Origin: an uncultured Paracoccaceae bacterium
GTDB lineage: Bacteria; Pseudomonadota; Alphaproteobacteria; Rhodobacterales; Rhodobacteraceae
DNA: 55,966 bases
Direction of reading: 5' to 3'
NCBI GenBank assembly: GCA_913061275.1
Contig: CAJXSR010000024.1
Span: 1-55,966 of the forward strand
The position numbers and the translations under genes are program-made. This document shows, in pieces, positions 13,753 to 29,147 of this stretch. Below the pieces are notes generated by a model. That model was not told where the DNA came from and ran no database searches. It was given only the letters and a program-made list of their open reading frames with translations. Each line of letters begins with the position of its first letter. Positions within the stretch are counted from its first letter, which is position 1.

Positions 13753-14637
13753 ATGTCTGAATCTTCGGTTGATTTAACGACGGCGCCAATAGTTGAAGCA
13801 TTTTTTGATGCTGAAACAAACACTATTTCTTATGTGGTCAAAGACCCAAAAACTAACGCATGCGCCATCATCGACAGTGTTATGGATATAGATATGGCAT
13901 CGGGCCGGATCACTTACACTCATGCGGACACTATGATTGCATATATCCAGGATAACGACCTTGATCTACAATGGATTATTGAAACCCATGTGCATGCCGA
14001 CCATCTATCAGCCGCGCCTTATATTCAGGAAAAACTTGGCGGCAAAATGGGGGTCGGTGAAAACATCACTGTTATTCAAGAAGTTTTCGGAAAGTTTTTT
14101 AATGAAGGTACTGAATTTCAACGGGATGGCAGCCAGTTTGATCGTTTGTTTCAGGATGGTGATACCTATCAAATCGGCGAAATGACCGTGTTCACAATGG
14201 CCACGCCAGGGCACACACCTGCATGTATGGTGCATGTGGTCGGTAATGCTGCTTTTGTGGGGGACACTTTGTTTATGCCAGATGGCGGCTCTGCTAGGTG
14301 TGATTTTCCGGGCGGCTCTGCAGAGGTGCTTTATACATCAATCCAAAAAGTGCTTAGCCTTCCTGATGAAACAAGACTTTTCATGTGCCATGATTATGGC
14401 CCCAATGGGCGTGATATTCAGTGGGAAACCACAGTTGGTGAGGAAAAAGAGCATAATATCCATGTGGGTCGGGGTAAAACCAAAGAAGAATTCGTTAAGT
14501 TCCGCACCGAACGCGATGCGCAATTAGGAATGCCTAAACTTATCATTCCATCATTGCAGGTAAATATGCGCGCAGGCGAAGTGCCTACGGATGAAGATGG
14601 CAATCCAATACTTAAAATACCGTTAAACAGACTGTGA
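13753..14637 (+). CDS. blh: Persulfide dioxygenase-like MBL-fold hydrolase (copy 1)
   Basis: 294 residues. The metallo-beta-lactamase metal motif H79-x-H81-x-D-H84 (ETHVHADHLSAAPYIQ) is intact, with later ligands in TPGHTPACMVH, GDTLFMPDGGSAR and FMCHDYGP. It belongs to the ETHE1/Blh group, which oxidises glutathione persulfide to sulfite with a single iron. The ATG at 13753 has AAGGA 7 bases upstream. It closes the Crp/Fnr-DUF2892-Blh cluster. A close paralogue lies at 24716-25600 in the methanethiol operon; the two align without gaps over most of their length. The role is sulfide and sulfane-sulfur detoxification. Confidence 0.9.
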   Translation: MSESSVDLTTAPIVEAFFDAETNTISYVVKDPKTNACAIIDSVMDIDMASGRITYTHADTMIAYIQDNDLDLQWIIETHVHADHLSAAPYIQEKLGGKMGVGENITVIQEVFGKFFNEGTEFQRDGSQFDRLFQDGDTYQIGEMTVFTMATPGHTPACMVHVVGNAAFVGDTLFMPDGGSARCDFPGGSAEVLYTSIQKVLSLPDETRLFMCHDYGPNGRDIQWETTVGEEKEHNIHVGRGKTKEEFVKFRTERDAQLGMPKLIIPSLQVNMRAGEVPTDEDGNPILKIPLNRL

Positions 14638-14727
14638 TACATAACCTACAAACAGAGCATTTCTTTATTGTTTGACGGGGCAGGTGGTTATAAGCCAGTA
14701 TCAGTTGCTTGTTAAGTTGCAAATAAA

Positions 14728-16065
14728 CTAGGCAGGCTTGTTTAAAACAGAGTTGAACAGATCAGAAATATCTGGTGCTACATCCAATGCCCAAACGGTA
14801 TTTTCTATCTTTATGGCAAACTCTTTGCTTAGTATTTCATTGGCAAGAGTATGGTATTTTTGATGAATAATAGTATCTGACAGCGGGTTTTCAGCATTGC
14901 CCAAACCTACGGAAGGTTCTGATTTCAATACGGTTCCATTGGTTAACACAATCTCGACACGGGCCCAGCGTTCTGCAGGGAACTTGGCGTTGAACAGATC
15001 ATCTTCATAGGGTTCTACTAGATTTGCCAAGTTGGCTATGTCGGGGTCATTCAACCCGCTGTTGCCAACTTCATTCGGGCCAATAGTTCCGCGTAGCAAT
15101 GCGGCAGCGACGGAGAAGGGCAGGCTGTATTGTGCAGCCTCTGTCGATTGAGGGTTTTTGGTGGATAAACGATAAGCCTCATGAAATGTGTATACTTTGA
15201 TGGCCTGAATATCGCTTACTTGAAATGCGTGTTGTTTCTTAAGCTGCAAGGCGGCTTCTACGGGGGGTTGGGCCCACCGGCACACTGGATACATTTTGAA
15301 ATACAGCCCTAGTATGTACCAGTCAGAACCCAGATCATCGTAATAATGTGCGGCATCCGCACCCGTAAGCGAAATTGCAGGGGCACCTGTAAAGCCATCT
15401 TGTGCTAGATACACGGCAGAAACACCCGCCATAGCCCCCCAGCCAGATCCGTCTTTTACCATGGTTGGGAAATCGATTGTGCGCATCATCTGGCTGCGCG
15501 GGCCGTGGTATTCTGCTATGCCTATGGCCTCATGAAAACGGGTTTCATCCATGTTTAAAAGGCGTGCTGCCATCGCAACTATTCCTAAGCCAACCCACGC
15601 ACCCGATGTGTGATAGTCTGCAACAGTTGCATGAAGCGCGATACCCGCGCGAATGGCAACTTCATAGCCGATAACAAGTGTTGTTAAAAACTCTTGACCT
15701 GAAACCTCTAATTCATTGGCTTCGATAAGGGCAATCAGAGCTGGCAAAATCCCGCACCCTGCATGGCCTTTAGTTAATGGGTGCCCATCATGGGCGTCAA
15801 TCGCATCTATCGTCATACCATTGGCCAAGGCTGCCCCCGATGCACTGACGCGTCTGCCGTCAAACATTAACCGCGCCCCTGCACCTTTGCCTGCGCCAAA
15901 TTGGTGGGTTGCGTGGCTATTGATGATCTTTGACAAATCAGTTGTTGTGCCAGCCGCCGCGACACCTATCAGATCAATTAAACACCGTTTCGCCTGATGT
16001 TGAACAGCGTCGGGTAGGTCATCCCACTTTAAATTTTTATTAAATTCAAAAACTATATTTGACAT
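14728..16065 (-). CDS. MmgE/PrpD family protein
   Basis: 445 residues. Family hallmarks: an N-terminal helical domain with KRCLIDLIGVAAAGT; GMTIDAIDAHDGHPLTKGHAGCGILPALIAL; and GSGWGAMAGVSAVYLAQDGFTG. PrpD proteins dehydrate 2-methylcitrate, and relatives include cis-aconitate decarboxylase. Members of this distant clade act on unknown carboxylic acids. No methylcitrate genes are nearby, so prpD itself is not supported. The start at 16065 (MSNIVFEFN) is used because TAGGA lies upstream; an in-frame ATG is found 16 codons earlier. Monocistronic. Confidence 0.88.
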   Translation of the reverse strand: MSNIVFEFNKNLKWDDLPDAVQHQAKRCLIDLIGVAAAGTTTDLSKIINSHATHQFGAGKGAGARLMFDGRRVSASGAALANGMTIDAIDAHDGHPLTKGHAGCGILPALIALIEANELEVSGQEFLTTLVIGYEVAIRAGIALHATVADYHTSGAWVGLGIVAMAARLLNMDETRFHEAIGIAEYHGPRSQMMRTIDFPTMVKDGSGWGAMAGVSAVYLAQDGFTGAPAISLTGADAAHYYDDLGSDWYILGLYFKMYPVCRWAQPPVEAALQLKKQHAFQVSDIQAIKVYTFHEAYRLSTKNPQSTEAAQYSLPFSVAAALLRGTIGPNEVGNSGLNDPDIANLANLVEPYEDDLFNAKFPAERWARVEIVLTNGTVLKSEPSVGLGNAENPLSDTIIHQKYHTLANEILSKEFAIKIENTVWALDVAPDISDLFNSVLNKPA

Positions 16066-21116: not shown

Positions 21117-22271
21117 TCAACTTCCAGAAGCAATCGACTTTTTAGGGTCGTAAAACGGGATCGGCACAACTGTGCAAGCGCGTGTTTCGCTCAGCTTATC
21201 AACTTCTAGGGCGGTATTTAATGCTGTGTGATCGATGCCGACCAATGCAAGTGCGATGTTCTTTTCAAGTCTTGGAGAATAGATCGCTGACGTGACTGTC
21301 CCGACCTTCACGCCGTCTTTCGTAATGGGCCAAAAGAAATCATTGGGCCCGACAAATGGATCGCCCTCAATAACCAAGCCAACAAATTTTTGCGATACCC
21401 CCCCCGCCGTGATCTTAGTCAATGCCGCCTTGCTGACGAAATCCGCATCTATATCCAGATCGACGAGACGATCCATACCCATTTCAAAAGGATTGTTCGC
21501 AAGGTTCATGTCTGCGTGATACGACAACATGCCCGCCTCGATCCGCCGAATACTCGACGTGTGACCCGGCTTCAAGCCCAGTGGCGTACCTACGGTCATC
21601 AGATGTTCCCAAAGCCTGTCACCCGCAGATCCATCGCGTAGGAAAATCTCGTACCCAAGTTCGCTGGACCAGCCTGTGCGCGAAATAATCAATGGAACAC
21701 CATCCCAGTCAAATTCCATGAAACGGTAATATTTCAGCTCTGTTGGGGCGTCCCCAAAGGCTGCGCGTATGACCTCGCGAGATTTGGGACCTTGCAACTG
21801 TAGAGGGGACACATCGGGTTCAGAAATTTCGACATCCATGCCTGAATTTACTGCAAGGCCGCGTGCCCAAAGCAGGACGTCGCTATCAGCAATGGAAAGC
21901 CAAAAATGATCATCAGCCAATTTCAAAAGGATTGGGTCATTGATGATCCCGCCGTCTTGGTCTGTGAGCAGCACATATTTACACTGTCCGACCTCACATT
22001 TCGACAGATCACGACAACTGAGGAATTGGGTAAACTTTGCAGCGTCCGGTCCTTTGATCTCGACTTGGCGCTCGACAGAAACGTCACACAAGATCGCCTC
22101 GTTGACCAAATTCCAGAAATTTTGAACTGGATCGCCAAAATCTCGTGGGATGTACATGTGGTTATAGACAGAGAATCCCTTGGCTCCCCAACGAAGGGCT
22201 GCGTCGGAGAAAGGTGATTTTCGCACCTGTGTTCCGAAACTGAATTGGGCAAAGTTATGTTCTTGAGGCAT
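21117..22271 (-). CDS. DmdA-like aminomethyltransferase-family demethylase
   Basis: 384 residues of the GcvT/aminomethyltransferase fold, which takes a methyl group onto tetrahydrofolate. Stretches VYNHMYIPRDFGD, DVSVERQVEIKGPDA, INDPILLKLADDHFWLSIADSDVLLWA and EISEPDVSPLQLQGPKS are those of the DMSP demethylase (DmdA) branch and not of the glycine-cleavage T protein. DmdA converts DMSP to methylmercaptopropionate. It is the last gene of an eight-gene minus-strand operon whose other members handle an acyl-CoA, methanethiol, sulfide and persulfide, which supports a methylated-sulfur substrate. A demethylase for another S- or N-methyl compound remains possible. Orthology to dmdA cannot be proven by eye. 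Confidence 0.75.
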   Translation of the reverse strand: MPQEHNFAQFSFGTQVRKSPFSDAALRWGAKGFSVYNHMYIPRDFGDPVQNFWNLVNEAILCDVSVERQVEIKGPDAAKFTQFLSCRDLSKCEVGQCKYVLLTDQDGGIINDPILLKLADDHFWLSIADSDVLLWARGLAVNSGMDVEISEPDVSPLQLQGPKSREVIRAAFGDAPTELKYYRFMEFDWDGVPLIISRTGWSSELGYEIFLRDGSAGDRLWEHLMTVGTPLGLKPGHTSSIRRIEAGMLSYHADMNLANNPFEMGMDRLVDLDIDADFVSKAALTKITAGGVSQKFVGLVIEGDPFVGPNDFFWPITKDGVKVGTVTSAIYSPRLEKNIALALVGIDHTALNTALEVDKLSETRACTVVPIPFYDPKKSIASGS

Positions 22272-22300
22272 GATGTGTATCCAGTCAATTGTGTTGGGGG

Positions 22301-23911
22301 TCAGCTTTTTTGGCGGACCAGATCTCTAAGTTCGTTCTTGCGGACTTTTCCAGTAGTGGTCTTTGGGAGTTCGCCAAAGATCACTTTCTTTGGGCGTTGG
22401 TATCCAGCAAGGCCTGCCTTCGCATGGATCAATAATTCTTCTTCGGTGGCTTCGCCTGATAGCTCAACAAAGGCGCAGGGCACTTCGCCCCATTTCTCAT
22501 CCGGCATAGCCACGACCGCAACAAGGCTGACGGCGGGATGCGAATAGAGCGCCTTTTCCACCTCAATGGACGAGATATTTTCACCACCAGAGATGATGAT
22601 ATCTTTGGACCTATCACGAATTTCGATATAGCCATCGGCGTGTTGCACCGCGATGTCTCCTGACCAGAACCAACCATCTTTGAAGGCCTTTGCTGTCTCT
22701 TCTGGGGCTTTCAAATAACCTTTCATGACGATGTTACCGCGAAACACGATTTCGCCTAGTGTCTCGCCATCCCACGGGACAGGCTTACCTGTATCGGAAT
22801 TTAAGACTAAAACATCTTCTTCCAACTCATAAGCCACACCCTGGCGTGCCTTTAGAATGGCTTGTTCTTCAGGAAGTAGCTCCGCCCAACTGGGTTTCTC
22901 TGCACAGACAACCGCGGGGCCGTAAACTTCGGTTAAGCCGTAAACATGGGTGATTGCGATGCCCATGGCCTCCATTTTCTCGATCACACTGGCAGGAGGT
23001 GGGGCTGCGGCGGTCATCATTTTGATTTTTTGTGGAAAATCGCGTTTTCCTTTCGCGCCTGAGATCATCGACATGATGATAGGTGCGCCGCAAAGATGCG
23101 TGACCCCATGATCCGCAAAAGCGCCATAGATCGCATCGGCCCTTGGCGCGCGCAGGAACAGATGGCAACCGGCAAGCATGGTGATTGTCCAAGGAAAGAA
23201 CCAGCCATTGCAATGAAACAGCGGTAGCGTCCAAAGGTAAACGGGATGATGTGGCATTTCCCAAGTTACCACGTTGTTGACCGCATTGGTCCACGCACCA
23301 CGATGTGAATACACAACTCCCTTGGGCCACCCTGTGGTGCCCGAGGTATAGTTCAACGCAAGCGCGTCCCATTCGTCATCCGGCAGGGAGTAGGCGAAAT
23401 TCGGATCGCCCTCAGCCAGCAGTGCATCATAGGTCAAATTGCCGATCTTTTCTCCACCCGGGCCTTCGTTGTCCTCGATATCCACAAACAACAGGTCCAG
23501 ACCGGATTGCGCGACGGCTTTCGCAGCCATAGCTGAAAATTCGGTATCGACCAGCAAAACCTTGGCTTCGCCATGCTCAAGAATATAGGTGATCGTATCA
23601 GCATCAAGCCGCGTGTTATTCGCGTTCAGAACCGCACCCAGCATGGGCACAGCCAATGCGCATTCAAGCGCTTCGGGGATATTAGGCGCTATCAGGGAAA
23701 CGGTATCACCCTTGCCGATACCACGTTTGGCCAACGCGGACGCAAGCCGTTTGCAACGCGCCGCGACCTCACCCCAATTGCGCTGAATACGACCATGGAT
23801 TTGCGCGGGCAGCTCTGGATGTACGCGTTCGACACGTTTGAGGATAGAAACGGGTGATAGGGCAGTGTGATTTGCTGCGTTACGTACAAGCTCCGGACCT
23901 TCGTAAATCAT
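22301..23911 (-). CDS. AMP-forming acyl-CoA ligase (DmdB/ACSF2-like)
   Basis: About 536 residues, complete. The ANL motifs are intact: YTSGTTGWPKGVVYSHR (phosphate loop), HVYGLTEVYGPA, GWFWSGDIAV, DRSKDIIISGGENIS (hinge) and PKTTTGKVRKNELR with the catalytic Lys. It activates a carboxylate to its CoA thioester. The ATG at 23911 overlaps the upstream crotonase stop as ATGA, so it is chosen over a TTG four codons earlier. Within this operon the likely substrate is methylmercaptopropionate or a related methylthio acid, as for DmdB; a medium-chain fatty acid cannot be excluded. Confidence 0.88.
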   Translation of the reverse strand: MIYEGPELVRNAANHTALSPVSILKRVERVHPELPAQIHGRIQRNWGEVAARCKRLASALAKRGIGKGDTVSLIAPNIPEALECALAVPMLGAVLNANNTRLDADTITYILEHGEAKVLLVDTEFSAMAAKAVAQSGLDLLFVDIEDNEGPGGEKIGNLTYDALLAEGDPNFAYSLPDDEWDALALNYTSGTTGWPKGVVYSHRGAWTNAVNNVVTWEMPHHPVYLWTLPLFHCNGWFFPWTITMLAGCHLFLRAPRADAIYGAFADHGVTHLCGAPIIMSMISGAKGKRDFPQKIKMMTAAAPPPASVIEKMEAMGIAITHVYGLTEVYGPAVVCAEKPSWAELLPEEQAILKARQGVAYELEEDVLVLNSDTGKPVPWDGETLGEIVFRGNIVMKGYLKAPEETAKAFKDGWFWSGDIAVQHADGYIEIRDRSKDIIISGGENISSIEVEKALYSHPAVSLVAVVAMPDEKWGEVPCAFVELSGEATEEELLIHAKAGLAGYQRPKKVIFGELPKTTTGKVRKNELRDLVRQKS

Positions 23912-24708
23912 TCCACTGTCCAATCTGGCATTGGCTCTTTGCGGGTGAAGGCCCCTATTCCAGCGTTTGCATCAAGCGTCATCATGTTTTCCGCCATCGT
24001 GTGACCAGCAAAAGCATAAGCTTCATCTAATGGCATTTCTAGCTGTTCATAGAAGGCGCGTTTGCCGATCTTAACGGCAGCCGGCGATTTATCAGCAATG
24101 ATACGGGCCATTTCCATGGATGTGTCTTCCAGCTCCGCCAAGGGCACAACGCGGTTTACCAACCCTATTTCGGCGACACGGGCTGCAGGTAAGAACTCTC
24201 CCAACAACAGCATTTCCATGGCCAATTTGCGCGGCACATTGCGGCTAAGTGCGACCATCGGTGTTGAGCAAAACAGCCCAATGTTTACGCCTGATGTGGC
24301 AAATGTTGCATCATCGGCAGCTACTGCAAGATCGCATGAGGCCACAAGCTGGCATCCAGCCGCTGTGGCAATCCCTTTCACTTCGGCGATCACTGGCTGG
24401 GGCAAACGCACGACACGAAGCATCATCGCAGAACACTTGGCAAAGAGATCTTGGAAATACTGCAAACCACCGTCGGCGTCAGTACGGCGCTCCGTCATCT
24501 CTTTGAGGTTATGGCCCGCGCAAAAATGATTTCCGCCGCTGCGAAGGATCACCGCTTTGATACTGCGATCATCTGCAATCTTTTCGAATGTGTTGGACAG
24601 TGCGAGCAACATCGCTTCTGACAAGGCGTTGATCGACTTGGGCGCATTCAACGTAAGAACGGCAACACCGTTCTTGTCGGTTCGTAAAATTAAGCCATCG
24701 TTTTCCAT
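23908..24708 (-). CDS. ECHDC3-like crotonase lacking both catalytic Glu
   Basis: 266 residues of the crotonase fold. Oxyanion-hole segments are present (HFCAGHNLKEM and the TAAGCQLVASCDLAVA helix). In hydratases the latter is GCEL and the following segment carries a second Glu; here they read GCQL and SGVNIGLFCST, so both catalytic Glu are replaced. The whole block ATFATSGVNIGLFCSTPMVALSRNVPRK closely matches mammalian ECHDC3. It is therefore not a standard enoyl-CoA hydratase or a plain DmdD; hydrolase or isomerase chemistry is possible. The start at 24708 has GAGAG upstream and lies 7 bases after the preceding stop; an earlier ATG (24726) would overlap it. Confidence 0.87.
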   Translation of the reverse strand: MENDGLILRTDKNGVAVLTLNAPKSINALSEAMLLALSNTFEKIADDRSIKAVILRSGGNHFCAGHNLKEMTERRTDADGGLQYFQDLFAKCSAMMLRVVRLPQPVIAEVKGIATAAGCQLVASCDLAVAADDATFATSGVNIGLFCSTPMVALSRNVPRKLAMEMLLLGEFLPAARVAEIGLVNRVVPLAELEDTSMEMARIIADKSPAAVKIGKRAFYEQLEMPLDEAYAFAGHTMAENMMTLDANAGIGAFTRKEPMPDWTVE

Positions 24709-24715
24709 ATTACTC

Positions 24716-25600
24716 TCATAGGCCATTGAGTGGAACCTTCAGCATGGGTGCGCCGCTTTCGTCGCACGGAATTTTGCCCGCCCGCATGTTCACTTGCAGG
24801 GACGGAATAATCAGTTTCGGCATCGCCAATTGAGCGTCCCGTTCTGTGCGGAACTTGATGAAGGCATCGCGCGATTCCCCAGCACCGACGTGGATGTTGT
24901 CGGCACGTTGCTGCGCGATAGTTGTTTCCCACGCTATGGCGCGCCCACTGGGACCATAATCATGGCAGATGAATAGGCGCATCTCATCGGGAAGGGACAA
25001 CACGGTTTGGATGGAATCGTACAATTGCCCCGCATCACCACCCGGAAAATCGGCACGGGCTGAGCCACCATCGGGCATAAACAGCGTATCACCAGCAAAC
25101 GCCGCATCGCCAATCACATGTACCATGCAAGCGGGTGTGTGACCAGGTGTGGCAATTGCGAAAGCGGTCATCTTTCCAATGGTGTAGGTGTCGCCATCCT
25201 CAAAAAGGGCATCAAACTGCGACCCATCGCGTTGAAATTCCGTACCTTCGTTAAAGATCTTGCCGAAGGTATTCTGAATTTCCTTGATTCCGACACCAAC
25301 GCCGATTTTGCCACCTAGCTTGTCTTGAATGTAGGGCGCGGCGGAAAGGTGATCGGCATGAACATGGGTCTCGATTATCCACTCTAGTGACATCCCCTGA
25401 GTTTGGATGGTGTCAATCAGGCGATCTGCACTGTCATAAGTGATCCGTCCTGCCGCATAATCCATGTCCAAAACGCTGTCGATGATCGCGCAAGCGTTTG
25501 ATTCGGGGTCTTTCACGATGTAGGAAATCGTATTGCTCGCTGGATCAAAGAACCCTTTGACATCGGGCAGCACTGACATGTTCAAATCTAGAAAATTCAT
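24716..25600 (-). CDS. blh: Persulfide dioxygenase-like MBL-fold hydrolase (copy 2)
   Basis: 294 residues, aligned end to end with the protein at 13753-14637. H79-x-H81-x-D-H84 lies in ETHVHADHLSAAPYIQ, with further ligands in TPGHTPACMVH and FICHDYGPSGR. It oxidises low-molecular-weight persulfides to sulfite and thiol. In this operon it would remove the sulfur released as sulfide by methanethiol oxidase, after conversion to persulfide. The start at 25600 has GGAGCG 6 bases upstream. It follows the rhodanese gene by 15 bases. Having two copies under different regulators suggests one general and one pathway-specific enzyme. Confidence 0.9.
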   Translation of the reverse strand: MNFLDLNMSVLPDVKGFFDPASNTISYIVKDPESNACAIIDSVLDMDYAAGRITYDSADRLIDTIQTQGMSLEWIIETHVHADHLSAAPYIQDKLGGKIGVGVGIKEIQNTFGKIFNEGTEFQRDGSQFDALFEDGDTYTIGKMTAFAIATPGHTPACMVHVIGDAAFAGDTLFMPDGGSARADFPGGDAGQLYDSIQTVLSLPDEMRLFICHDYGPSGRAIAWETTIAQQRADNIHVGAGESRDAFIKFRTERDAQLAMPKLIIPSLQVNMRAGKIPCDESGAPMLKVPLNGL

Positions 25601-25615
25601 TGCACGCTCCATGGT

Positions 25616-26005
25616 TTATGCCAACGTGCCCCCGGCCTTTTTCCAGGCACCAACACCTCCGGCCAAGTTCACAACAGGCGAGAGCCCCATATCCATAGCC
25701 ACCATCGCGGCCATTGCCGACCGCCCGCCTGATGCGCAGTAGAACACGTAGGTCTTATCTTGATTGAACTCGGGTTTATGTGCTGGGCTTTCTGGGTCGA
25801 GATGAAATTCCATCATGCCGCGTGACGACGCAACAGCCCCAGAAATAGTGCCAGTTTTTGCCTGTTCTGTGCCATCGCGTAGATCGACAAACACGTGATC
25901 GGGCGAGCCAACCAAAGCTATTGCTTCTTCTGCACTGATCGCAGGCACTGCGGACATAGCCGTTTTGACGATGTCTTTCGCGCTTTTTGTAATTATCTGA
26001 GCCAT
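25616..26005 (-). CDS. Rhodanese-domain sulfurtransferase
   Basis: 129 residues, single rhodanese domain. The active loop is C90-ASGGRS (VFYCASGGRSAMAAM), preceded by the DLRDGTE substrate-entry motif and followed by NLAGGVGAWKKAGG. It carries persulfide sulfur between thiols. The start MAQIITKSAKDI at 26005 is preferred; an upstream TTG at 26131 would add a 42-residue extension of unlikely composition. There is a 122-base gap to the preceding CoA-binding gene. Together with the persulfide dioxygenase it forms the usual sulfide-disposal pair. Confidence 0.92.
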   Translation of the reverse strand: MAQIITKSAKDIVKTAMSAVPAISAEEAIALVGSPDHVFVDLRDGTEQAKTGTISGAVASSRGMMEFHLDPESPAHKPEFNQDKTYVFYCASGGRSAMAAMVAMDMGLSPVVNLAGGVGAWKKAGGTLA

Positions 26006-26127
26006 GATTGATTTCTTTCTTTGGTCGGGATTGAGCCAGCCTAGCACTGCGGTGAGCGGCCAGTTTATGGGCCCGCTACATCCGCAACTAAACAAGGGCG
26101 GCACGTAAATTTCTGTATCGCCCTGTG

Positions 26128-26592
26128 TCAAATTTCAAGGTCAAGACGAGGTTTCCAGAATGGGCGGAAAAGTTCGATTTTTGGGCAACGGTTCATAACC
26201 ACTTTTAAGCCCGCCTCTTCGGCTAACTTCGCCGCACGATCGTCATAGACGTCAATCTGACCCCATAGAACCGACGCACCAATGGCAATCGCCTTCTCGG
26301 TGATAGCGTAGAGTTCTTCCTTGGGACGAAACACTTCGACCATATCAACAGGACGGTTGATTTCTTCCAGCGAATGAAAAACGGGGATACCGCGAATTTC
26401 CGTCAAATTCGGGTTGGGGTTCACTGGGATCATATCATATCCAGTTTCGTGCAGCACACGCAGTACGCCGTAACTGAATTTGGTCTTGTCGCCACTGGCA
26501 CCAACCATAGCGATCGTTTTAACCGTGCGCAGAATTTCGGCCAAATACTCTGGGGTATAACTGTACAATTGATCAAGATCAGTCTCAGGCAT
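26128..26592 (-). CDS. CoA-binding (YccU-like) Rossmann protein
   Basis: 154 residues of the CoA_binding_2 family. The nucleotide-binding turn is TIAMVGASGDKTKFSYGVLR, and later segments DMIPVNPN, VDMVEVFRP, GASVLWGQIDVYDD and VVMNRCPKIE are family-typical, with the MNRC cysteine conserved. Members bind CoA or acyl-CoA without known catalysis. A perfect AAGGAGG lies 6 bases before the ATG, and the stop of the preceding ferredoxin gene abuts it directly. The Cys near the C-terminus might hold CoA as a disulfide or persulfide, which would fit the sulfur context; this is inference. Confidence 0.88.
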   Translation of the reverse strand: MPETDLDQLYSYTPEYLAEILRTVKTIAMVGASGDKTKFSYGVLRVLHETGYDMIPVNPNPNLTEIRGIPVFHSLEEINRPVDMVEVFRPKEELYAITEKAIAIGASVLWGQIDVYDDRAAKLAEEAGLKVVMNRCPKIELFRPFWKPRLDLEI

Positions 26593-26961
26593 CTAAGCCT
26601 CCTTAGGTGTCGCGATATCCGCCTTCAGTTCATGTGGCTCAAGCGGATCAAGGAAGGGGTTGCGGTAAAGTTTGTCATGGCTTTCGACGCCGATCTCCAA
26701 GGTGCAATCGGAGACAGCGCGGGCGACACAAAGCAAAATGTAACCATTGTTGATCTGACGATTGTTCAACGCTACTTGCCGACGCTGATCCACCTCACCA
26801 GCCGTCAGTTTGGCCGCGCAGGTAATGCAGCCGCCGTATTTGCAGCCATAGGGTAAATCGACGCCTTGTTCGCGCAGCGTATCCAACAAAGGGCGGCGTG
26901 CGTCGACTTGGTACGTCGCATCGTCGCGATTGGCGATTGTGATGGTGCGGGTCTTGTTCAC
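26593..26961 (-). CDS. Plant-type [2Fe-2S] ferredoxin
   Basis: About 122 residues. The cluster ligands are Cys40, Cys45, Cys48 and Cys78 (LPYGCKYGGCITCAAKL and ILLCVARAVSDC), in the C-x4-C-x2-C-x29-C spacing of plant-type ferredoxins. The GTG start at 26961 overlaps the methanethiol oxidase stop as GTGA; a TTG seven codons earlier is possible. It carries electrons for a redox enzyme. Its partner is not obvious in the operon, because methanethiol oxidase uses oxygen and the persulfide dioxygenase needs no ferredoxin, so it may serve cofactor maturation or a reductase elsewhere. Confidence 0.9.
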   Translation of the reverse strand: MNKTRTITIANRDDATYQVDARRPLLDTLREQGVDLPYGCKYGGCITCAAKLTAGEVDQRRQVALNNRQINNGYILLCVARAVSDCTLEIGVESHDKLYRNPFLDPLEPHELKADIATPKEA

Positions 26962-28316
26962 AGCCAGATATCGCTTGTGCAATCGCCACCTGGATAGCGG
27001 GTTTCATGGCAACGACTTGGTCCGTTCGGTTCCTTCCCGAAATCAACAATGAAGTCTTCGTTGATTTTCATGCCGCCATTCTCGACATCGCAATCGATCA
27101 TCAGCATGACGCCTCCTTGGGTGCGGATCTCGGGGTAGAACTGGTTGTCCCAAGTTGAGAACAGCGAGGTAGTGACATAGAGCCGCTTGCCGTCAAGTGA
27201 GAGTTGGTACATCTGCGGTCCACCCGCAACTTTGACGCCATTGACCTCAGGCGCGCGGCCCAACAGCCCTCCCATCCAGACCTGTCCCGTTAATACGGGG
27301 TTATGGGGATCGCTAATGTCGTATTGGCGCATGTCGCCGTGCAGCCAGTTGTTGAGGTAGAGGTATTTATCGTCCATCGAGACCAGAATGGCCGACATCA
27401 CACCAGGAATAGGAATGGGCCATTCGGGGTGCGGTTCGTTCTCAACGTCGATGATCTTTTCCCATTCCCATTTACCCGCGTCTGTCTTCCAAAAGTGGAT
27501 GACATTTGAGCTGAGCGCAGCACCACAAAAGCCGTGGCTGCTGTCGGGATCATGTAGGAATTTCACTTCCAATGGGATCAGGCCATCTTCACCAAGGTAC
27601 ATCGTCTCGATAGGCTCTTTCTTTTCAAAATCCCAAATGTGAAGACGACGGCCGTATTTAAGATGTCCGACTTCTTCGAGGTCAAAGCCTGGCATAAAGG
27701 TGTTAGGTGCAGCCCATTCGGAGCTGACCATCACGTTGTGGCGCGGTTGATACCAGAAGTCATAGCTGAACGGGATGTCCCCCATAGAGTTTTCCCAACG
27801 GCCAACGATCTCAAATTCTTTGTTGAGGTGCAGATACCCACCGGGTGCTTCTCCCTGCGCGTCACCAAGGAACGAAATGATGATCTCGGACCCAAGGCAA
27901 TGCACCGTATGCGGTCCAGACAGATTGGTTTTTGATTTGATCTCTGCTCCATCAATCACCTTATGCAGGCGCGGTGCAAATGGATCCGTTGCCGTGTCGA
28001 TTACGTGGATATTGTTAGACCGCACACCGGGCACCAGCAGGTATTTGCGTGCCATTCCTGCGTTGTCGTGACACGAAGAACATGCATTCCAACCCATATG
28101 ATGCAGCTCATCGCCGATGCCAGGCATTTCAAGCCGATGAATGACTTGCGAATAAGTTGGGCTCTCTGGATCTGCGTCAACTGTTGCCAAATAGTCTGGC
28201 TTCTGGATGCCAGTCCCGGTGTAGATGGCTATTGTGTATAACAGTTTTTCGCGTGGCGATTTGATTGCCTCGGCAGGGCTTGCGTACCCTGGGCCACAGC
28301 ATGCTTTGTCCATCAT
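26958..28316 (-). CDS. mtoX: Methanethiol oxidase (selenium-binding protein SBP56 family)
   Basis: 452 residues. It follows human SELENBP1 (methanethiol oxidase) nearly throughout: CCGPGYASPAEA, DYLATVDADPESPTYSQVIHRL, GDELHHMGWNACSSCHD, YDFWYQPRHNVMVSSEWAAPN, SNWLHGDMRQYDISDP, KRLYVTTSLFSTWDNQFYP and the C-terminal RYPGGDCTSDIW. The enzyme converts methanethiol with oxygen to formaldehyde, sulfide and peroxide, and needs copper. No signal peptide is present, so it is cytoplasmic, unlike the periplasmic Hyphomicrobium enzyme. GGGAGG sits 7 bases before ATG 28316 (a GTG one codon earlier also fits). It is the first gene of the minus-strand operon and is divergent from an IclR regulator. Confidence 0.92.
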   Translation of the reverse strand: MMDKACCGPGYASPAEAIKSPREKLLYTIAIYTGTGIQKPDYLATVDADPESPTYSQVIHRLEMPGIGDELHHMGWNACSSCHDNAGMARKYLLVPGVRSNNIHVIDTATDPFAPRLHKVIDGAEIKSKTNLSGPHTVHCLGSEIIISFLGDAQGEAPGGYLHLNKEFEIVGRWENSMGDIPFSYDFWYQPRHNVMVSSEWAAPNTFMPGFDLEEVGHLKYGRRLHIWDFEKKEPIETMYLGEDGLIPLEVKFLHDPDSSHGFCGAALSSNVIHFWKTDAGKWEWEKIIDVENEPHPEWPIPIPGVMSAILVSMDDKYLYLNNWLHGDMRQYDISDPHNPVLTGQVWMGGLLGRAPEVNGVKVAGGPQMYQLSLDGKRLYVTTSLFSTWDNQFYPEIRTQGGVMLMIDCDVENGGMKINEDFIVDFGKEPNGPSRCHETRYPGGDCTSDIWL

Positions 28317-28338
28317 CACATTCCTCCCTTGCGGTCAC

Positions 28339-28359
28339 TTGATTATTCTCGTATATCAA
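28339..28359. promoter_or_regulatory. Candidate IclR operator in divergent promoter region
   Basis: TTGAT at 28339-28343 and ATCAA at 28355-28359, an inverted repeat with 11 bases between, centred in the 69-base gap between mtoX and the IclR gene. Its position suits a regulator that controls both directions. Confidence 0.45.
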
Positions 28360-28385
28360 TAAATAAATTATCACAAGGTAAAAGA

Positions 28386-29147
28386 ATGCATCTGGAACGC
28401 CTGACTTTCATCCTTGAAGCTGTTGGACAAAAGGGAGAGGCAACGGTGGCTGACATTTGCGCCCACTCGGACCTCCCCAAACCCTCTGCGTACAGATTGG
28501 TGCAGGACCTTGTCGGTGTAGGTCTTTTGGAACCCGTTGCGCGTGGACAATTTACGATTGGATCCCGCCTGAAGCGGATCACGCAAAATGATCACTCTGA
28601 TCGTGCATTGCTCGAGACGATTGCGCCCGCGCTAAGACAAGCGGCGGCACAATTTGGCACCGCGTTTTTTCTGTCTCGATTGCGTGGAAAATCCGTTGAA
28701 ATTATTCATGTTGAGACGCCAGACACCGGTGTCTCATATCTCCATCCTGGTTTAGGAAAACGCCCCTTGCATGCATGTTCTTGCTCAAAGGCCGTTGCTG
28801 CATTCTCGCCCTACTTATTTTCATCGGGAGATATGGAGGGACGGCTACGCGCCTACACTGAGTTTACTCTCACATCGGTGGAAGACCTCGAAGCGGAGTT
28901 CGAAACTATACGCAAGCGCGGCTTTGCAGAATGCGTGGAAGAGATCGAGCGCGGCATGTGTTCGGTCGCCGCCCCGCTGGCGACAAGCGGGCCGGGGGCC
29001 ACGATGTCCATTGGTGCGACGGGATCAATGCGAGTTTTTACGCCCACGTTCCGCAAAAAATTTGGCCCCCAAATCACCCAAATTGCGCGCGACGTGCTGG
29101 TAAGCTTGGGCTGGGATGCGGCAATGGATGCCAAAATATCAGGCTAA
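28386..29147 (+). CDS. IclR family transcriptional regulator
   Basis: 253 residues. An N-terminal winged helix (HLERLTFILEAVGQKGEATVADICAHSDLPKPSAYRLVQDLVGVGLLEP) is joined to the IclR effector domain (SRLRGKSVEIIHVETPDTG; RPLHACSCSKAVAAF; GFAECVEEIERGMCSVAAPL). The start at 28386 has AAGG upstream; earlier in-frame codons lie inside the divergent promoter. It is transcribed away from the methanethiol oxidase operon across a 69-base gap and very probably controls it, with a pathway intermediate such as a methylthio acid as a plausible ligand. Four Cys in the effector domain may matter. Confidence 0.92.
   Translation: MHLERLTFILEAVGQKGEATVADICAHSDLPKPSAYRLVQDLVGVGLLEPVARGQFTIGSRLKRITQNDHSDRALLETIAPALRQAAAQFGTAFFLSRLRGKSVEIIHVETPDTGVSYLHPGLGKRPLHACSCSKAVAAFSPYLFSSGDMEGRLRAYTEFTLTSVEDLEAEFETIRKRGFAECVEEIERGMCSVAAPLATSGPGATMSIGATGSMRVFTPTFRKKFGPQITQIARDVLVSLGWDAAMDAKISG

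Follow-up and report, generated by a model that had tools for sequence, protein, structure and literature searches.

A predicted eight-gene operon joining a SAR92-type DmdA-like protein to methanethiol oxidase and sulfane-sulfur genes in Rhodobacterales

The stretch of DNA analysed here (the window) comprises 55,966 nucleotides, positions 1 to 55,966 of contig CAJXSR010000024.1 (assembly GCA_913061275.1), from an uncultured Paracoccaceae bacterium of the order Rhodobacterales. Eight tightly packed open reading frames (ORFs), all on the minus strand and running in the same direction from 28316 to 21117, were assigned to families by NCBIfam and Pfam profile searches. From upstream to downstream, they encode methanethiol oxidase (MTO), ferredoxin (Fdx), a coenzyme A (CoA)-binding protein (CoAb), rhodanese (Rhd), persulfide dioxygenase (PDO), enoyl-CoA hydratase (Ech), acyl-CoA ligase (Lig) and a protein resembling DmdA, the demethylase of dimethylsulfoniopropionate (DMSP). 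The initial annotation, made from the DNA letters, had described the ORFs, their families and their spacing at this place as we find them, and had read them as a single unit; such a unit does link a DMSP-type demethylase, a CoA ligase, a crotonase, MTO and sulfane-sulfur oxidation, with only an acyl-CoA dehydrogenase missing. The genes, their order, homology, conservation and phylogenetic place were established in the present analysis. The features are as follows.

28329..29147, plus strand: IclR-family regulator (PF01614/PF09339), divergent from the operon; start at TTG 28329, although the true start may be further downstream, for example, ATG 28386
26958..28316, minus strand: MTO of the SBP56 family, cluster-1 type (PF05694, 681 bits; motifs GWNACS, HTVHC and GGDCT)
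26593..26961, minus strand: plant-type [2Fe-2S] ferredoxin (PF00111), with a GTG start that overlaps the MTO stop
26128..26592, minus strand: CoA-binding protein, CoA_binding_2 (PF13380, 118 bits)
26006..26127, minus strand: 122-base spacer between CoAb and Rhd; possible small ORF, leader or N-terminal extension
25616..26005, minus strand: rhodanese, a sulfurtransferase (PF00581), probable start ATG 26005
24716..25612, minus strand: PDO-type protein of the metallo-beta-lactamase fold (NF040641, partial match; PF00753)
23908..24726, minus strand: enoyl-CoA hydratase (crotonase), candidate methylthioacryloyl-CoA hydratase in the AcuH/DmdD role (NF006008/PRK08139)
22301..23911, minus strand: acyl-CoA ligase, candidate 3-methylmercaptopropionate (MMPA)-CoA ligase in the DmdB role (NF006020/PRK08162), probable start ATG 23911
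21117..22271, minus strand: DmdA-like protein, presumed tetrahydrofolate (THF)-dependent demethylase of a SAR92-type sister family of DmdA (NF009133, 368 bits; tree)

The junctions, read from the sequence, are close throughout. MTO and Fdx overlap by GTGA (Fdx GTG at 26961), the Fdx stop abuts the CoAb ATG at 26592, and Ech and Lig overlap by ATGA (Lig ATG at 23911). Rhd, starting at ATG 26005, is separated from CoAb by 122 bases and from PDO by 3; PDO overlaps Ech by 11 bases if the latter starts at 24726 and not at all if the second in-frame ATG (24708) is used, and 29 bases separate Lig from the DmdA-like gene. The eight genes are presumably co-transcribed. In the spacer (26006-26130), the Rhd frame, read from a TTG that overlaps the CoAb stop (ATG in some relatives), gives a Cys-rich segment, CGCSGP..WPLTAVLGW, which is alike and in frame in the window and in loci L130, L163, L033 and L032, with the frame broken in L155 and L162. 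The 122-base gap may thus be coding in part of the relatives, perhaps as a separate small ORF or leader, or as an optional extension.

The DmdA-like protein scored 368 bits against the DMSP demethylase profile NF009133, below the cut-off of 410, and is 36.5% identical to a Phaeobacter inhibens protein annotated as DMSP demethylase and 36.0% identical to DmdA of P. ubique. In a 71-row tree, for which long-branch warnings were raised for several canonical and outgroup rows, the 10 canonical DmdA rows formed one group (100/100), separate from the window protein. The latter was placed within a 46-row family (99/94) that divides into subclade I, containing the window protein (100/93), and subclade II, containing a protein of SAR92 strain H231 (90/93). 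Assignment to canonical DmdA (clades A-E) was rejected on the basis of the position in the tree, the score below the cut-off and the 36-38% identity; on sequence evidence, the window protein is a member of a SAR92-type sister family of DmdA. The protein is of the GcvT fold, and its AlphaFold model (mean pLDDT 78.5) had P. ubique DmdA as the best Foldseek match (3tfh, E 8e-37), with T-proteins close behind. The use of DmdA residues to test for substrate was set aside, because the presumed active H231 enzyme reads SELG, not KQGG, and four Rhodobacterales DmdA rows carry Tyr at the position of the P. ubique Trp; these residues do not decide the substrate. A further tier of DmdA-like proteins, approximately 43-46% identical to the window protein, falls into several tree groups (L118, L121, L122, L123, L129, L137, L242, L243, L245-L247). 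In three of these loci, from H231 relatives (L243, L246, L247), the ligase gene adjoins the ~43-46% DmdA-like copy, and the ligase is 51% identical to that of the P. inhibens dmd cluster.

The functional bearing of this family comes from SAR92. In an R. pomeroyi dmdA mutant, methanethiol production was recovered with candidate dmdA genes from HTCC2207, H921 and H231, the H231 gene reaching 37.2% of the wild-type level; these genes were induced by DMSP, branch peripherally to clades A-E and encode proteins 34.6-39.0% identical to P. ubique DmdA, although no methanethiol from DMSP was detectable in H231 cells themselves (PMC10746254). The H231 genome accession given there, JAOALC, is the same record as our locus L207. 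Six homologues of the window protein are encoded in that genome, one of which is 68% identical to it and the other five at most 29%. The 68% homologue is 39.0% identical to P. ubique DmdA (333 columns), within the published range, and the three of the other five that were compared are 22.5-25.6% identical. By elimination, the complementing H231 dmdA would therefore be L207:8947-10131. The published threshold for the DmdA_like group is at least 40% identity to a ratified member (PMC13310141); taking this L207 gene as the ratified one, again by elimination, the window protein is 68% identical to it over 373 amino acids and falls into the same 46-row family, although the two proteins occupy different subclades there. 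Downstream of the L207 gene lie genes for a CoA-binding protein (directly next), a hydratase and a ligase, 50%, 55% and 54% identical, respectively, to those of the window. Since both canonical DmdA and a subclade II member demethylate DMSP, the simplest inference is that subclade I does likewise. The initial annotation had named a position outside the DmdA clade, combined with inactivity on DMSP, as grounds for refutation. The window protein does lie outside the canonical clade, which is half of that test, but given that a sister-subclade protein is active in vivo, this half alone does not refute the annotation's reading.

The genes flanking other family members offer a further hint. In Lichenihabitans, a lichen isolate, a conjugative plasmid (L134 8618-13185) carries a 56% identical DmdA-like homologue beside genes annotated as methylene-THF reductase, purU (formyl-THF deformylase) and folD. 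The same three one-carbon (C1)-folate gene groups adjoin family members in Marinobacterium (L182, L193, L198), and two of the three do so in an Oceanospirillaceae metagenome-assembled genome (MAG; L220). In L198, PurU and FolD are backed by Pfam, and the reductase-group gene (L198:10508-11437) had no Pfam match. Neighbours with these annotations fit a methyl-THF product.

The hydratase and ligase were assigned above the cut-offs of their profiles, NF006008/PRK08139 (385 bits, cut-off 313) and NF006020/PRK08162 (803 bits, cut-off 677), respectively; an assignment of the ligase to PRK07008, 3-(methylthio)propionyl-CoA ligase, is thereby corrected. The hydratase is 55% identical to that near the H231 DmdA and 25% identical to P. 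inhibens DmdD. The PRK08162 subfamily is common to the window ligase and to the ligase of P. inhibens pPGA1_262 whose gene adjoins dmdD and dmdA (50% identity). Candidates for the missing acyl-CoA dehydrogenase (DmdC) are present elsewhere in the same genome (G000:C28 and C5, respectively 48% and 39% identical to the dehydrogenase of the P. inhibens dmd cluster), although the family is broad; the dehydrogenase is probably encoded elsewhere in the genome, with C28 and C5 as candidates.

On the sulfur side, the window MTO scored 153 bits against the MtoX equivalog profile NF052453, below the cut-off of 650, and contains all three cluster-1 motifs, GWNACS, HT(V/I)HC and GGDC(S/T). Pfam assigned neither any of the eight genes nor the IclR gene to SCO1/SenC or MauG; a periplasmic MtoX of the SCO1/MauG type was rejected. 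The SCO1/MauG neighbourhood mentioned in the initial annotation has been reported around mtoX in Hyphomicrobium and R. pomeroyi (PMC5739008), but belongs to a different SBP56 type. The annotation's choice of sulfide as the MTO product needs revision: earlier work named sulfide, together with peroxide, whereas three MTOs, two of them of cluster 1 (RdMTO and RlMTO), are reported to release sulfane sulfur from methanethiol, and deletion of pdo in R. pomeroyi slows methanethiol removal (PMC10936201). By analogy, the window MTO would release sulfane sulfur as well, in which case rhodanese and PDO would be the direct next steps; an operon that has both, and in which none of the eight genes encodes a sulfide oxidase, fits a sulfane-sulfur route. 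The candidate persulfide dioxygenase matched NF040641 (bifunctional ST/SDO Blh) over model positions 128-422 with 365 bits, below the cut-off of 625. It carries the metal motif HxHxDH as HVHADH within the metallo-beta-lactamase fold (PF00753), and its closest solved chains are 9g8t, 4efz and 4ysk, with the ETHE1 chain 4chl among weaker matches. Ferredoxin and the CoA-binding protein are frequent companions of MTO. The divergent IclR protein is a likely regulator of the operon, as judged from its orientation. In R. pomeroyi, an IclR gene lies directly upstream of mtoX, and both are induced by DMSP, MMPA and methanethiol (PMC5739008). IclR homologues occur in L130 and in 16 of the best 79 loci (defined below). 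In 14 of the 16, the IclR gene diverges from that for MTO or hydratase; in the other two, L201 and L204, it is encoded on the same strand as MTO.

The arrangement exceeds what chance would give, since all eight genes and the divergent IclR gene are found again on plasmid pP30_b of P. inhibens P30 (NZ_CP010619; 81-95% protein identity), typed as conjugative by PLSDB, and in Roseovarius albus (L155; 85-96%). Among 149 genomes of the window's family searched for MTO and the DmdA-like protein, 52 had an MTO match and 24, including that of the window, encoded the window's DmdA-like group (63-86% identity). MTO was present in 19 of these 24 genomes, as opposed to 33 of the 125 without the group (Fisher P 1.7e-6, ignoring common descent), and lay at most 5 kb from the DmdA-like gene in six of the 24, as read by hand: the window genome (G000), G032, G123, G036, G113 and G006. 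Within 22 MTO loci of the window lineage (L032-L053; the window locus and three fragment hits, G037:C63, G056:C65 and G139:C85, left out), ferredoxin accompanied 21, CoA-binding protein 18, rhodanese six, DmdA-like protein three and PDO two, some contigs ending nearby. MTO and ferredoxin thus form a near-constant core, to which the other genes are variably added. Two copies in this sample were each split in two, the G036 PDO (L036 8820-9685), whose two tblastn matches differ in reading frame, and the G014 MTO (L053 9974-11333); these are either broken copies or assembly errors.

Scanning the contigs of named genomes with a family-alignment profile gave 584 confirmed stretches, of which the best 79 loci were compared. 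MTO shares the locus with the DmdA-like family in 18 of them, 12 with an MTO of the window lineage and six with a second lineage 40% identical to it; both lineages carry the cluster-1 cysteine motifs in the copies checked, with GGDC not found in the window-lineage L018 and L019. The order MTO-Fdx-CoAb-Ech-Lig-DmdA-like recurs in six (L154, L155, L156, L162, L164, L165), including a MAG labelled SAR116 (L164). Shorter versions of the operon exist in other Rhodobacterales and in this MAG; of the 79, only L155 holds all eight genes. L163 gave no ligase hit, and L157 neither hydratase nor ligase hits. Hydratase and ligase at 45% identity or more were present in 34 of the 79. The 53 loci outside group I (see below) frequently contain an Lrp homologue (39) and OsmC (29), defining a second module of Lrp, DmdA-like protein, OsmC, hydratase and ligase that is also found on P. 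inhibens pP51_d and pP88_b. Three P. inhibens plasmids of replicon cluster 579 (NZ_CP010619, NZ_CP010627, NZ_CP010727) carry alternative modules, the window type on pP30_b and the Lrp-OsmC type on pP51_d and pP88_b. The latter module was also seen at L131 9329-14069, where the OsmC-annotated gene (L131:11158-11604) had no NCBIfam match, and at L133 9334-15045. Behind the L133 module, part of a second-lineage MTO was matched (14203-15045) that is absent from the distributed gene table; as an IS3 transposase is annotated from 15107, this MTO may be broken. A gene adjoining a second-lineage MTO (L187:11695-12357) had no Pfam match. In L154, L156 and L157, genes for LysR, aldehyde dehydrogenase and an M19 peptidase lie 3' of the DmdA-like gene; in L156, these genes resemble their counterparts near the canonical dmd cluster of pPGA1_262 at 85-94% identity, and this may reflect a single event.

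The operon was compared with the closest known systems. The H231 dmdA-acuH-dmdB cluster (PMC10746254) shares its DmdA sister family (68% identity) and its hydratase, ligase and CoA-binding families, but none of MTO, ferredoxin, rhodanese and PDO gave a hit in L207, and its DmdA gene stands first, whereas that of the window stands last. The pPGA1_262 dmd cluster, consisting of an acyl-CoA dehydrogenase, dmdD, an AMP-binding ligase and DMSP demethylase (dmdC and dmdB being labels given here), likewise combines a demethylase, a PRK08162 ligase and a crotonase; unlike the window, it contains a canonical DmdA (36.5%), another crotonase (25%) and the dehydrogenase, with no MTO or PDO hit in the stretch fetched. 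RdMTO and RlMTO have the three cysteine motifs and a proposed route from sulfane sulfur to PDO, but the terms operon, gene cluster and rhodanese are absent from the main text of PMC10936201. The mtoX-SCO1-mauG clusters of Hyphomicrobium VS and R. pomeroyi (PMC5739008) share the SBP56 fold and, in R. pomeroyi, the IclR neighbour and the inducers mentioned above; they differ in the copper and tryptophan tryptophylquinone maturation genes and in the predicted periplasmic location of the Hyphomicrobium protein, and R. pomeroyi MTO belongs to cluster 2 (TCQSPYM; PMC10936201) rather than to cluster 1 as in the window. The mto clusters of Methylophaga thiooxydans bring MTO and PDO together, but with SCO1/MauG, SqrB and SulP, and the available text of PMC6548844 names no demethylase, ligase or hydratase in them. 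A demethylase and a cluster-1 MTO also stand in one gene run on pMaD9 of Marinovum algicola (ligase-dmdA-alcohol dehydrogenase-SBP56; the alcohol dehydrogenase is labelled acuI here), which differs in its canonical DmdA, its MTO of the second lineage (40%) and the lack of PDO or rhodanese hits in the stretch fetched. In genome G066, too, MTO lies beside canonical dmdA.

Taken together, these observations make it probable, in our judgement, that the window contains an operon for DMSP demethylation that is horizontally mobile and equipped for methanethiol disposal, leading through methanethiol to sulfite, with the dehydrogenase encoded elsewhere. The joint pathway proposed by the initial annotation is partly supported, with its details amended, by the DmdA-like/MTO link with two MTO lineages and by the complementing 68% relative in H231, the latter identified by elimination. 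We infer that DMSP is the substrate of the DmdA-like protein and that the steps follow in this order: the DmdA-like protein would transfer a methyl group from DMSP to THF, yielding MMPA; the ligase would convert MMPA to MMPA-CoA, which the dehydrogenase encoded elsewhere would oxidize to methylthioacryloyl-CoA; the crotonase would hydrate the latter to methanethiol and acetaldehyde; the cluster-1 MTO would split methanethiol into formaldehyde and sulfane sulfur; and rhodanese would pass the sulfane sulfur to a thiol for oxidation to sulfite by PDO, with the IclR protein as the likely regulator.

Several observations weigh against this reading. Two other proteins of the same genome exceed the DMSP-demethylase cut-off (C6, 561 bits; C17, 498 bits), so that a third enzyme for the same substrate is not needed. 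Pfam detects no acyl-CoA dehydrogenase among the eight operon genes, and the DmdA-like protein has Phe in place of the usual Tyr two residues after a conserved Glu. The H231 enzyme that was tested sits in subclade II, the window protein in subclade I, and the identity of the L207 gene with the tested one rests on elimination; moreover, the published H231 order, dmdA-acuH-dmdB-dmdC (PMC10746254), differs from that of L207, where a CoA-binding gene separates the first two and the ligase gene is not followed by dmdC; the dehydrogenase that matches best in the H231 genome is on another contig. Among the 26 group I loci (L154-L178, L211), several of which end at contig edges, a hydratase was found in 11, a ligase hit in 10, rhodanese in five and PDO in two. 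Some family members share their locus with MTO while neither a hydratase nor a ligase hit was obtained there (Mameliella L187 and L221, Hyphomicrobiaceae L168 and L170, Jannaschia L230, and L178 on a contig of 4.4 kb), which leaves room for another substrate. The sister-subclade nature of the test, the dispensability of a third demethylase, the MTO loci devoid of hydratase and ligase, and the scarcity of PDO and rhodanese keep our confidence moderate.

Three other explanations were considered. The DmdA-like protein might demethylate a different dimethylsulfonium carboxylate, such as gonyol, dimethylsulfonio-hydroxybutyrate or dimethylsulfonioacetate, with the ligase and crotonase then freeing methanethiol from the carbon skeleton. 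The two other proteins above the DMSP-demethylase cut-off speak for this, as does the separate, Lrp-linked version of the module with OsmC, and the lack of a dehydrogenase alongside the crotonase would match a 3-hydroxyacyl skeleton; yet the tested enzyme of the sister subclade, whose hydratase and ligase neighbours are homologous to those of the window, uses DMSP in vivo, and we regard this explanation as possible but rather unlikely. We consider it very improbable that the operon's DmdA-like subclade comprises THF-dependent methyltransferases for dimethylsulfide or MMPA. Such an enzyme would make methanethiol directly from dimethylsulfide, leave the ligase and crotonase to another step and turn the operon into a cytoplasmic route from a methyl sulfide to sulfite. 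The MTO-linked loci without hydratase or ligase hits would be accounted for, and, if true, this would supply the entry enzyme that earlier papers called unidentified, namely, the dimethylsulfide methyltransferase of Methylophaga (PMC6548844) and the MMPA demethylase (PMC3160333); but in vivo the family member from H231 uses DMSP, and canonical dmdA also adjoins MTO, in G066, though its product is not methanethiol, so that adjacency does not tell the substrate.

Finally, two unrelated units might have been joined by chance, one for detoxification of methanethiol and sulfane sulfur (MTO to PDO) and the other for catabolism of an N- or O-methylated acid. In line with this, 19 of the 22 window-lineage MTO loci have no DmdA-like gene, 61 of the 79 best DmdA-like loci have no MTO (contig ends cut some), and the 56% homologue of Lichenihabitans is surrounded by genes for amino-acid transport and C1-folate functions. 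The link to MTOs of two lineages and the co-occurrence at the genome level speak against it, and make a chance union an improbable account.

In preference to these, the reading as a DMSP-demethylation operon with its own methanethiol disposal involves enzymes that are all of known kinds. The grouping had been thought possibly undescribed: no description of this operon, or of the SAR92-type DmdA family paired with cluster-1 MTO, was found in the openly licensed PMC literature searched, preprints not covered, but MTO beside canonical dmdA already exists in Marinovum pMaD9 and G066. SAR92-type DmdA_like genes have also been counted before, and mtoX is enriched in Rhodobacterales carrying ddd or dmdA (PMC13310141).

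The steps from DMSP through methanethiol to sulfite are usually studied as separate gene sets, and the operon provides a defined gene set with which the proposed passage of DMSP sulfur through sulfane sulfur can be tested. In the sea, DMSP-derived methanethiol represents a large flux of sulfur, and whether it escapes as gas, is assimilated or is oxidized depends on the ability of the producing cell to oxidize it as well. If our reading is true, the SAR92-type DmdA family, in print peripheral to clades A-E, would be tied to methanethiol oxidation in Roseobacters, and, with production and consumption of methanethiol united in one cell by a transferable operon, one would expect little of the gas to leak, sulfite to form without a sulfide-oxidizing step and the operon to spread across lineages.

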